A stretch of DNA of 64,000 bases from Leptolyngbya sp. NIES-3755 (GTDB lineage: Bacteria > Cyanobacteriota > Cyanobacteriia > Leptolyngbyales > Leptolyngbyaceae), in assembly GCA_001548435.1 (NCBI GenBank), contig AP017308.1, positions 5,589,030-5,653,029 of the forward strand, given 5' to 3'. The stretch's first letter is position 1. Every line of letters begins with the position of its first letter. The position numbers and the translations under genes were made by a program. The notes below the pieces were generated by a model. The model worked only from the letters and a program-made list of their open reading frames with translations. It did no database searches and was not told where the DNA came from. Shown in pieces: positions 55,422 through 59,368 of this stretch.

Positions 55422-55931
55422 GTGGATTTATCACGCATTCCTGCCCAACCCAAACCGGGCTTGATCAACGTCCTGATCGAAATTCCCGCAGGCAGCAAGA
55501 ACAAATACGAATTTGACAAAGATCTGAATGCTTTTGCGCTCGATCGTGTTCTGTATGCCTCGGTGATGTATCCGTTCGATTATGGCTTCGTGCCGAACAC
55601 CTTAGCGGATGATGGCGATCCACTGGATGGCATGGTGATCATGGATCAGCCTACTTTTCCTGGATGTGTGATCGCGGCTCGTCCGATCGGCATGTTGGAA
55701 ATGATTGATGGCGGCGATCGTGATGAAAAAATCCTCTGCGTTCCTGACAAAGATCCCCGCTATACAAACGTTAAATCACTCAGTGACATTGCTTCTCACC
55801 GTTTAGATGAAGTCGCAGAGTTCTTCAGAACCTACAAAAATCTGGAGAAGAAAGTGACTGAAATCCTCGGCTGGCAGGATGTGGACAAAGTGCTGCCGCT
55901 TGTGGAACAGTGCATCAAAGCCGCGAACTAA
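55422..55931 (+). CDS. ppa: Inorganic pyrophosphatase (family I)
   Basis: A 169-aa soluble pyrophosphatase that drives biosynthetic reactions by hydrolysing PPi. It has [20 protein letters not shown], containing the metal-binding Asp cluster, and the downstream DKDPRY block. It starts with GTG at 55422 (GTGGATTTATC). A terminator follows the stop by 26 bases. Confidence 0.95.
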
Positions 55932-55957: not shown

Positions 55958-55988
55958 AGGCTTGGGAAGATTCCTGAGCCTTTTTTTA
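55958..55988 (+). terminator. Intrinsic terminator of ppa
   Basis: A 10-bp stem with two G-T pairs (AGGCTTGGGA 55958-55967 and TCCTGAGCCT 55972-55981) and a 4-nt loop is followed by seven T. Confidence 0.9.
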
Positions 55989-55998
55989 TTGTGAGCTT

Positions 55999-56004
55999 TA
56001 TAAT
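55999..56004 (+). promoter_or_regulatory. Possible -10 box (TATAAT)
   Basis: A perfect TATAAT right after the ppa terminator, about 7 bases before the structured region starting near 56011. No good -35 is seen at the usual distance, so it is only a candidate promoter. Confidence 0.45.
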
Positions 56005-56010
56005 TCGATT

Positions 56011-56160
56011 CAGCTTGGTATCCGCCCGAACCCAGTGGGTAGCCTAAACAGAGGGAGATTGCTCCCACCGTCTTCGGACGGCATCACTGCACACAGCTTG
56101 TGATCATAGGCACTCTAGAGAATGAATTCGCTCTCGTTGGGTTTTACGCACAAGCGCTTG
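56011..56160 (+). ncRNA. Putative structured RNA upstream of the MBL gene
   Basis: About 150 nt with no supported coding frame and several predicted pairings read by eye. Long-range stems GCTTG/CAAGC (56013-56017 with 56152-56156) and AACCCA/TGGGTT (56029-56034 with 56139-56144) enclose GCCTA/TAGGC. Local hairpins GGGAG-ATTG-CTCCC and CCGTC-TTCG-GACGG (a UUCG tetraloop) lie inside. It could be a small RNA or a leader of the gene at 56181. I do not recognise a class; 6S RNA was considered. Confidence 0.4.
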
Positions 56161-56180
56161 AAGCAACTCTGAATCCAGCA

Positions 56181-57026
56181 ATGACCCACTCTTCCGATTT
56201 CTTCATTCACTTTTGGGGCGTTCGAGGGAGCATTCCTGTCCCCGGCAATGAAACCGTCCGCTATGGTGGCAATACGTCCTGTATCGAAATGCGTGTGGGT
56301 GGAAAACGCCTGATTTTCGATGGGGGAACGGGGCTACGGGTGCTCGGAAAATCCATGCTCAAGCAAATGCCCGTTGAAGCGCACATGTTCTTTTCGCACT
56401 CGCACTGGGATCACATCCAAGGCTTTCCCTTCTTCATTCCTGCCTTCGTTCCTGGCAATTGTTTTCACATCTATGGCGCGATCGCTCCCAACGGCGCATC
56501 GATGCAAAAACGCCTCAGTGATCAAATGCACCATCCGAATTTTCCTGTTCCGATGCAAATCATGAAGTCGGATATGAAGTTTACCGATGTCATCGTAGGC
56601 GATGTGATCGAACTCGATAATATTCGGATTGAAACAGGACCTTTGAATCATCCTAATTCTGCGATCGGGTATCGAGTGACTCATAACGGAAAGACCGTCG
56701 TATATGCCACTGATACCGAACACTATCCCGATCGTATCGATGAAGATCTCGTCCATCTAGCGCGGGATGCGGATGTTCTGATTTACGATGCCTGCTATAC
56801 CGACGAAGAATATTATGACGAGAAATCGCCCAAAATTGGCTGGGGGCATTCAACTTGGCAAGAAGCGTTAAAAGTCGTCGATGCGGCACGAGTCAAAAAA
56901 GCAGTGATGTTCCATCACGATCCGAATCACGACGATGATTTTTTGGATGGAATTGAAGCGGAAGTCCGATCGGTCTTTCCAAACAGCTTACTAGCACGTG
57001 AAGGCATGATCCTGCCCGTTGAGTAG
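56181..57026 (+). CDS. MBL-fold metal-dependent hydrolase
   Basis: A 281-aa protein of the metallo-beta-lactamase superfamily beginning MTHSSDFFIHFWGVRGSIPV, typical of the cyclic-phosphodiesterase-like branch. All ligands are present: FFSHSHWDHIQG (HxHxDH), a later His in GPLNHPN, Asp in VYATDTEH and a final His in FHHDPNHDDDF. Substrate unknown. The start is ATG 56181; the frame back to 56100 runs through the structured region and is rejected. Confidence 0.88.
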   Translation: MTHSSDFFIHFWGVRGSIPVPGNETVRYGGNTSCIEMRVGGKRLIFDGGTGLRVLGKSMLKQMPVEAHMFFSHSHWDHIQGFPFFIPAFVPGNCFHIYGAIAPNGASMQKRLSDQMHHPNFPVPMQIMKSDMKFTDVIVGDVIELDNIRIETGPLNHPNSAIGYRVTHNGKTVVYATDTEHYPDRIDEDLVHLARDADVLIYDACYTDEEYYDEKSPKIGWGHSTWQEALKVVDAARVKKAVMFHHDPNHDDDFLDGIEAEVRSVFPNSLLAREGMILPVE

Positions 57027-57107: not shown

Positions 57108-57884
57108 ATGAACGAGCGCGGCTTTAAGCGAGATTGGTTCCCACTCTTATTGGGTGCGGTCCTATTGCTGTTGGCTCACTATGCCGCCTTGTTGTTTCGG
57201 ATTCATCCCAGTATTTCACTTTGGTTTCCACCGTCGGGAGTTGCAATCACGCTTGCCGTTTGGTTTGGAATGCCTGCTGCGATCGTCACAGGATTGGTTT
57301 CTACGCTCGTTGCACCAATTTGGGGAAGTCATGGCTGGCTGCAATGGGTGGGATTAACTGATGCAGTGGAACCCTTGGTTGCGTGGTGGTTTTATCGGAA
57401 ATTTTGGCAGCGATCTCCTGGATTGGGACGGCTGAAAGATATCAGTGCGTTTATTCTGAGTGCGCCTGTGTTTGCTTGTGCGAGTTCTGCGATCGTCGGA
57501 AGTCTCGTTTTAGCGATCGTCGGCAGAATGTCTTGGGCAAAAGTTGCGAGTGCAATGCCGCAATGGTGGTTAGGGAACGCGATCGGAACAATGGTGATTG
57601 CACCGATCGCGCTTTTGACTTTGACTCCGACTTTGCAGCGATGGAACTGGCTTCCGGGTGAACCTTCAACGGGTTCACCATCTCTGAAATCCTCACGGGT
57701 TAGAAATGAAGCAATTGCGATCGCGGCTCTGAGTATTGGAACTGCGATTTTGAGTGTTTCACATACGAGTCAGTATGGTCTAGCGTTTCAACAATTGGCG
57801 TTCCTTAATTTGTGCCGATTCTTTGGGCAGCATTGCGATTTGGAGCGGTGGGAGGTGCAGGAACCGCTACCTTTTGTGTCCTAG
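57108..57884 (+). CDS. MASE1 sensor part of a frameshifted hybrid histidine kinase
   Basis: A 258-aa frame with eight hydrophobic spans and the MASE1 landmarks [16 protein letters not shown] and [14 protein letters not shown]. It is the membrane sensor domain of the kinase encoded by the next frame. At about 57811 it shifts: the last ~24 residues ([14 protein letters not shown] and on) are out of frame noise before the stop at 57882-57884. One missing T in CCTTAATTTGTGCC would keep the original frame into the next part. Confidence 0.8.
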
Positions 57885-59368
57885 CCGCGTTATTGAGCTA
57901 CCTAGTGAAGTATCCGGATGCGCTGAGATTGCCAGAGTTTCCGATTGATCCAGGGGTGCTCACGGTTCATAAACTGAGTTTGTTGACGCAGTGTGTCATC
58001 GGATTGTTCATCGGAACAGCGGTGACGCAACAGACGCAAATTCAGGTAAAGTTGGCAATTTCTCAGATTCAACTCGCAGAGTATCAAGAGCGATCGCGTT
58101 TAACGGAGATTCTTGAACAAACAAATGTTCAATTAGAGCAAGCCAATCACGAAAAAGATGAACTGTTATCACGAGAACAAACGGCACGAGAACAAGCCGA
58201 AACTGCGAACCGAATTAAAGACGAATTTTTAGCGATCGTGTCTCATGAACTCCGAACGCCACTGAATCCGATTCTTGGCTGGTCAAGGCTTTTACGCGAT
58301 GGAAAGCTCGATGAAACGGCAACTCAAAAGGCTTTAGAAACAATCGATCGCAATGCTAAACTTCAATCGCAATTAATCGAAGATTTGCTGGATGTCTCTC
58401 GAATTCTACGCGGCAAGCTCGTTCTACGTGAGATTGAGTTGGACATTGGATTGGTGATTCGATCGTCGATCGAGACAGTGCGATTATCAGCAGAAGCGAA
58501 ATCAATCAATCTTACGTTTATTCAACCAAACTCCGATTCCAGAATTTTAGTTCATGGTGATCCAAATCGATTACAGCAAGTGATGGTTAATCTGCTCACG
58601 AATGCGATTAAATTCACGCCACCAGAGGGACAAGTTACGATCGTTCTAGAGCATTCTTCAAAGTCCGCCAAGATTAGCGTCATCGATACTGGAAAAGGGA
58701 TTCATCCAGACTTTTTGCCGTATGTGTTTGAGCGATTCCGTCAAGAAGATAGTGGCACGACTCGGCACTTTGGTGGGTTGGGATTGGGACTCGCGATCGT
58801 CAGTCATTTAGTCGAACTGCATCACGGCAAAATTGAAGCGCAAAGTGAAGGAGTCGATCGAGGTGCGAGTTTTATCGTCACTTTACCGATCTTGCAATCT
58901 GAATCAGAAATGTTTGTTCCTGAAACCATTCCAACGATTTTACAAACCAGAGTTCTTAATGGCAAAAGCGTTCTAGTGGTGGAAGATGATGCGGATGCGC
59001 GGGAATTGTTGAAATACATTTTGGAATCAGAACAAGCAACGGTTTTCTTAACTAGCTCGGCTCAGGACGCGATCGCTCATCTTCAAGAAGCAATTCCAGA
59101 TTTGATCATTAGCGATGTCAGTATGCCAGATATTGATGGATATCGCTTTATTCAGCAGGTTCGCAAACTGGAGACAGAGCGAATTCCCGCGATCGCGTTA
59201 ACAGCAAATGCGAGAGAAGAAGATCGACTGAGTGCGATCGCGGCGGGTTTTGATGCTCATGTGTCGAAGCCGATCGTGTTGGAGACGTTACTAGCAGAGA
59301 TTGAGAAACAATTTCAGACAGCTCTTTCGATGGATAGAGATTCTGTCCCACGGCAGCCGCTACCTTAG
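57812..59368 (+). CDS. Histidine kinase-receiver part of the same frameshifted gene
   Basis: Begins at GTG 57812 ([14 protein letters not shown]), the last MASE1 helix pair. A coiled coil at about 90-140 leads to the HisKA domain ([19 protein letters not shown], His near 147), the HATPase domain ([42 protein letters not shown]) and a C-terminal receiver ([13 protein letters not shown], phospho-acceptor in [11 protein letters not shown], Lys in VSKPI). This is a complete MASE1-HK-REC protein of about 752 residues once the frame is joined. A truncated soluble form from 57812 could still be made. Confidence 0.85.

Follow-up and report, generated by a model that had tools for sequence, protein, structure and literature searches.

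A probable scar of a lost panD gene, carrying a predicted promoter, between ppa and an MBL-fold hydrolase gene in Leptolyngbya sp. NIES-3755

The stretch 56005–56180 of the window, by which we mean the whole 64,000-nucleotide piece of Leptolyngbya sp. NIES-3755 DNA that was analysed, lies between ppa and the gene of an MBL-fold hydrolase, both on the plus strand (Table 1). What does this intergenic region do, and where did it come from? The original prediction saw a possible structured RNA here, either a leader controlling the MBL gene or an independent RNA. A comparison with related loci points to another origin. With a probability of roughly 0.6, the stretch is the scar of a panD gene that was lost from between ppa and MBL, and it now provides the promoter and 5′ UTR of the MBL gene. 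panD is a vitamin B5 gene and encodes aspartate decarboxylase (L-aspartate 1-decarboxylase).

Table 1. Genes, signals and leader features around the ppa–MBL interval, in window coordinates
Feature	Position	Strand	Basis
ppa, inorganic pyrophosphatase	55422–55931	+	PF00719, 196.7 bits; GTG start in ORF list
ppa intrinsic terminator, 10-bp stem then T run	55958–55981	+	terminator scan
TATAAT, possible genus-specific sigma-A −10 (P1) without −35	55999–56004	+	6/6 columns invariant in 7 congeners
−35-like TTGGTA of the conserved element (P2)	56015–56020	+	comparison of loci
P2 core TGGGTAGCCTAA: GGG (56037–56039) and −10-like TAGCCT (56040–56045)	56036–56047	+	corresponds to panD active-site codons V-G-S-I
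Putative MBL 5′ UTR / panD scar	56048–56180	+	no terminator; genome without panD; panD here in relatives
Small leader hairpin 1, GGGAG/CTCCC, core GGGA/TCCC	56053–56066	+	alignment of genus
Small leader hairpin 2, CCGTC-UUCG-GACGG, core CCGT/ACGG, loop variable	56068–56081	+	alignment of genus
Genus-conserved stretch before MBL ATG	56148–56180	+	17/33 columns invariant
MBL-fold metallo-hydrolase, RNase Z-like superfamily	56181–57026	+	PF12706, 82.7 bits

All the letters and pairings named in the original prediction are present, including the TATAAT, the ppa terminator and both hairpins. The ppa terminator leaves the MBL gene in need of a transcription start of its own. Downstream of it, a terminator scan found no terminator-like site on the plus strand from 55981 to 56300, so that RNA made here would continue into MBL as its 5′ UTR, and the suggestion that the region is a leader of the MBL gene is borne out as a reading. 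The same scan speaks against an independent small RNA of about 150–190 nt. Such an RNA could draw on the TATAAT that follows the ppa terminator and on a possible closing stem in the window (GATTCAG at 56007 with CTGAATC at 56169), yet with no plus-strand terminator in that range, pairings that are not kept in relatives and no match in Rfam, we regard it as highly improbable.

The MBL protein has weak PDB matches to RNase Z, and its scores against RNase Z models lie far below their cut-offs. In three relatives (G002, G005 and G007) the frame upstream of the MBL ATG is open for just 9–10 codons (290/291 aa versus the 281-aa match), which fits the earlier view that the stretch holds no coding frame. 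An upstream MBL start inside the stretch, at GTG 56100, was rejected, the frame being closed 9–10 codons ahead of the ATG in the same three genomes. In another relative (L009, G014) the MBL gene is hit in two segments that lie in different reading frames, which could reflect a frameshift or an error in sequencing. Further downstream in the window, a MASE1 open reading frame (57108–57884) overlaps, in another frame, the open reading frame at 57812–59368 with HisKA, HATPase and receiver domains; the two resemble a single sensor kinase gene broken by a frameshift.

The case for a structured RNA had been built on nested long-range pairings, namely GCTTG (56013) with CAAGC (56151), AACCCA (56029) with TGGGTT (56138) and GCCTA (56042) with TAGGC (56107). 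These pairings exist in the window, but they are not clearly above chance and are broken in sister species without covariation. Across the seven orthologous sequences of the genus, the three helices are paired in 89%, 71% and 63% of alignment cells, and three of the 26 pairs originally proposed carry two-sided changes versus 2.9 in shuffles, in a shallow set of seven sequences from one genus whose hairpin cores are invariant. The stretch folds with a minimum free energy of −54.3, compared with −48.1 on average for its shuffled versions (z −1.52). Of the 200 shuffles, 18 do equally well, and of 100 stretches of 176 nt taken at even spacing from the window, 15 reach a score this low. The seven orthologous regions, the window's included, have fold z values of −1.38 to +0.38. 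A search with 4227 Rfam families gave none at the gathering score and none at E values up to 10 on the stretch. A conserved fold is not upheld, with covariation no higher than in shuffles and folding energy near the shuffled level.

The two tight hairpins fared better. Both are present in the window and persist in the genus, but the exact UUCG tetraloop with five pairs occurs in the window sequence only; in each of the other six, either the loop differs or the fifth pair is missing. Core pairs of hairpin 1 are kept in 96% of cells with letters, with no compensatory change, and in hairpin 2 all eight core stem columns are invariant, against none of the six loop columns. The persistence of these two small hairpins may indicate a modest role for structure in the leader.

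A stronger version of this idea is a structured, cis-acting MBL leader that would start after the TATAAT at 55999 and in which the hairpins or a GCTTGTG/CACAAGC helix would control translation or stability of MBL. It could account for the invariant TATAAT in 7/7 congeners, for the fixed stem and hypervariable loop of hairpin 2, for the helix 56096–56102/56149–56155, which is kept in 92% of cells with G–U variants included, and for a pairing of TGGGT with the ACCCA of the MBL start, present in 7/7 congeners. Taken as a set, the four helices (two hairpins, the long helix and TGGGT/ACCCA) are paired in 93.8% of cells, a level reached by 7 of 500 shuffles (mean 92.1). RNAalifold reports a kept two-sided change in 4/30 pairs (seven sequences, one genus), and invariant columns are more frequent in the mid-leader (29/100) than at four-fold sites (21/165; p 0.002). 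Against this reading, the RNAalifold covariation term on the seven-sequence alignment is unfavourable (+0.55), and in the four-helix set a two-sided change is seen at one pair, where shuffles give 0.7. The fold z values and the Rfam result given above weigh against it as well, and leader length counted from the conserved motif described below varies from 44 to 375 nt between genera. The TGGGT/ACCCA pairing, in which the GGGTA of that motif would meet the MBL start, was rejected as a general mechanism, since G048 and G011 begin with ATGATTAA and cannot form it. We consider control of MBL by a structured leader unlikely.

A different pattern of conservation emerges across the family. Of the 42 family genomes searched, three (G003, G043 and G052) yielded no orthologous MBL locus at threshold, and the analysis covered 39 ppa–MBL loci. 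Loci without an intact panD have a common remnant, TTGGTA-N15-TGGGTAGC(A/C/T)TA(A/G), which lies on the MBL strand (window 56015–56047) and 61–392 nt ahead of the MBL start. The 12-mer TGGGTAGC[ACT]TAA occurs with at most one mismatch in 23 of the 26 loci without an intact panD (15 exact, 8 with one mismatch), a set that includes G015, where panD is merely frameshifted. At one mismatch to the TAA form it is absent from the remaining three (G008, G042 and G021), and on the opposite strand it is found in 0/26. The chance of a match per shuffled interval, with only base composition kept, is 0.2% for the 26 loci and 0.004 for a slightly looser pattern in a 21-locus panel; as the motif was discovered in these same loci, this probability is a guide and not a formal test.

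The 21-locus panel was chosen for having the motif and omits G015 (frameshifted panD), G041 (one mismatch), G008, G042 and G021. Its shared block consists of a TTGSTA-like hexamer, 15 nt, TGGG, TAGC(A/C/T)T and A, so that in this motif-selected panel GGG is followed by xAxxxT upstream of MBL and on its strand. The first hexamer was not a selection criterion. In all 12 loci of groups g1, g3, g5 and g8 it reads TTGGTA, CTGGTA or CTGCTA, with positions 2, 3, 5 and 6 invariant and a fixed 15-nt gap to TGGG.

The element is locus-specific. The pattern TTGSTRN19TAGCHTAR has one match in the genome studied here, the one at this locus, and 45 in the 42 genomes, where all 11 matches with TGGG before TAGC lie at the ppa–MBL position. 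Among 80 loci of MBL homologues, some with under 800 nt of upstream sequence, the motif was found within 800 nt upstream at up to one mismatch only in L031, L032, L034 and L039, which are G007, G009, G054 and G016 again and not other families. A regulon was rejected: TGGGTAGCHTAR has 127 matches in the 42 genomes versus 170 for a backward control pattern.

Conservation of this kind does not single out a promoter, and a site bound by a protein or an element acting at the RNA level would give the same picture. As a transcription-factor binding site, and not a promoter core, the 33-nt element would be a direct repeat of TTGGTA and TGGGTA at a distance of 21 bp. Its repeat-like look and helical spacing agree with this, as does the conservation of G and C where a sigma-A −10 would not require them. 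Yet in the 21-locus panel the first half varies (CTGCTA, TTGCTG, TTGGGA, TGACAA), whereas the second hardly changes, in part through the selection of loci; there is no surplus of sites elsewhere in the genomes and no known factor was matched. A factor site is quite unlikely in our view. NtcA-type and other operators, compared by eye alone, did not fit the element.

Relatives that still carry panD suggest where the element came from. The panD family PF02261 scores above the Pfam cut-off in 14/42 family genomes, and in each of the 13 family loci with an intact panD the gene lies between ppa and MBL, as does the frameshifted copy in G015. Outside the family, 18 of 61 panD loci have ppa before and MBL after the gene, and 17 have ppa only, within the stretch examined. 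As the order ppa–panD–MBL also occurs outside the family, panD was probably ancestral at this place. The genome studied here, which is 99.99% complete, has 0 matches to PF02261, none even at E values up to 10. It has panC and lacks panD; it also encodes a PLP decarboxylase akin to diaminobutyrate decarboxylase and PanP, scoring under the cut-off of each, as a candidate alternative source of beta-alanine.

At the position of the core, panD of relatives reads GTG GGT AGC ATA AG, the codons for V-G-S-I, which we take to lie around the panD autocleavage site. The exact 12-mer coincides with these codons in 4/13 intact panD genes (G017, G046, G012 and G022). The other nine panD carriers are without it, so that the 12-mer is not needed everywhere for MBL expression.

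Several loci appear to capture the decay of the gene. Debris of panD without an intact gene was detected in seven genomes (six of genus g4 and G008; best E 5e-11 to 6e-5). In G015 (L154) a frameshift breaks an otherwise well-conserved panD into two parts and leaves the motif intact, apparently a fresh loss; the MBL gene of the same locus (L016) also matches in two frames. On an unrooted tree of Ppa and MBL from the 39 loci, built by a quick method, panD presence changes three times and the motif five times, with G015 counted as panD-bearing and G041 as without the motif. Combined with the broader distribution of panD, this tree suggests separate losses, the unrooted counts themselves being unable to tell gain from loss.

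The sequence upstream of the core was compared with the panD profile at 25 offsets. In g4 and in g3, g5 and g8, the fit is best exactly at the anchor. In the window's genus the mean z is 0.9 and 4/24 other offsets fit the profile better, as do 2/24 in the outer three loci; nhmmer with the panD profile gave no hit in the window's genus. For this genus and the outer three loci, synteny and the sister clades weakly suggest descent from panD.

The end of the stretch bears on the history of the MBL start. At 56148–56180 the window reads ..ALEATLNPA in frame before the MBL ATG, set by eye beside the MSELEST.. of panD carriers, in which the N-terminal MBL extension MSELES.. overlaps the panD stop codon. 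This segment looks like a remnant of the MBL N-terminal extension, and the start codon has apparently shifted to an internal ATG.

Within the genus, 8/11 core columns are invariant versus 21/165 four-fold sites (p 3e-5). The P2 core is not uniquely conserved there: the TATAAT, the stem of hairpin 2 (8/8) and the segment before the MBL ATG form other invariant blocks, and 64/176 columns of the whole stretch are invariant. A further trace comes from codon choice. In the motif, isoleucine is encoded by ATA in 5/13 family panD genes versus 1/51 outside the family, kinship being uncorrected, and the sole outside case (G029) likewise has the order ppa–panD–MBL. This count used 61 outside panD loci, part of those listed, of which 5 had no match and the other 56 had valine (5) or isoleucine (51) at this position. 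ATA accounts for 44/591 isoleucine codons in the outside-family panD genes. With kinship uncorrected, the rare ATA is consistent with a constraint acting on this codon at the DNA level in this lineage, and a promoter inside panD may explain it.

From these comparisons we predict that the motif at 56015–56047 is the MBL promoter, with a −35-like TTGSTA, GGG and a −10 of the form TAxxxT. The element would then be a promoter, a known kind of object, with an unusual history. A promoter able to drive the downstream MBL gene would have arisen inside panD; panD would later have decayed, while the motif stayed under selection and most of the remainder eroded. RNA polymerase would start near 56052 from P2 and produce a leader of ~128 nt that runs into MBL. 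In the window's genus a second start, from the TATAAT at 55999, is possible and would fall near 56011. A consensus scan for a sigma-70 promoter (TTGACA, 16–18 nt, TATAAT) found none, the TATAAT at 55999 having no −35.

The most speculative step is recognition by a sigma factor of the SigF/SigJ type, which would read GGG followed by xAxxxT. The genome encodes at least two SigF-family sigma factors; two of its proteins score over the threshold of the SigF model NF005644. The hexamer TAGCCT bears little resemblance to TATAAT or to the J-Box aAtacT, the TTGGTA–TAGCCT gap of 19 is long, and the element matches neither of the published consensuses, aAtacT and TAGGC with GGTAA. As both the hexamer and the −35 are off the published consensuses, the sigma assignment is the weakest step. 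The fuller proposal, that the MBL promoter evolved within the V-G-S-I codons of panD, was kept through two or three separate panD losses and is a group 3 sigma promoter, is tentative, and we put it at somewhat below even odds.

If the promoter reading is true, a candidate riboregulator is replaced by a testable predicted promoter whose start is predicted to within a few bases. The loci would further form a natural series, from intact panD with the motif through frameshifted panD and debris with the motif to the motif alone, in which a regulatory site embedded in a coding sequence survives the loss of that gene. The case also carries a caution, namely that invariant blocks in the remains of a lost gene may pass for RNA structure. 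At the level of titles and abstracts, the literature showed no mention of panD loss or of a promoter here.

Compared with known systems, the stretch resembles 6S RNA and similar cyanobacterial structured RNAs in length and intergenic place, but differs in having no Rfam match even at E 10. It shares with panD (PF02261) the place between ppa and MBL, a core that equals the V-G-S-I codons and flanks that are alignable in g4 and in g3, g5 and g8, whereas the window has no panD coding capacity left.

Among promoters, those of SigF in Synechocystis are described with TAGGC and a −12 GGTAA and those of SigB in B. subtilis with GGGTAT (PMC2758279). The element resembles them in its GGGTA at −10/−12 and in a −35-like hexamer 16 nt upstream, but it has TTGGTA instead of TAGGC, and the next base is G and not A or T. 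SigJ J-Box promoters of Nostoc are reported as GGGaAtacT (PMC6495340), and the element shares with them a GGG immediately followed by a hexamer whose second base is A and whose sixth is T. It differs in having TAGC(A/C/T)T in place of aAtacT and in being a single locus without a regulon. Whereas the −35 regions of J-Box promoters are weak and AT-rich, the element has a conserved TTGSTA-like hexamer, TTGGTA in the window.
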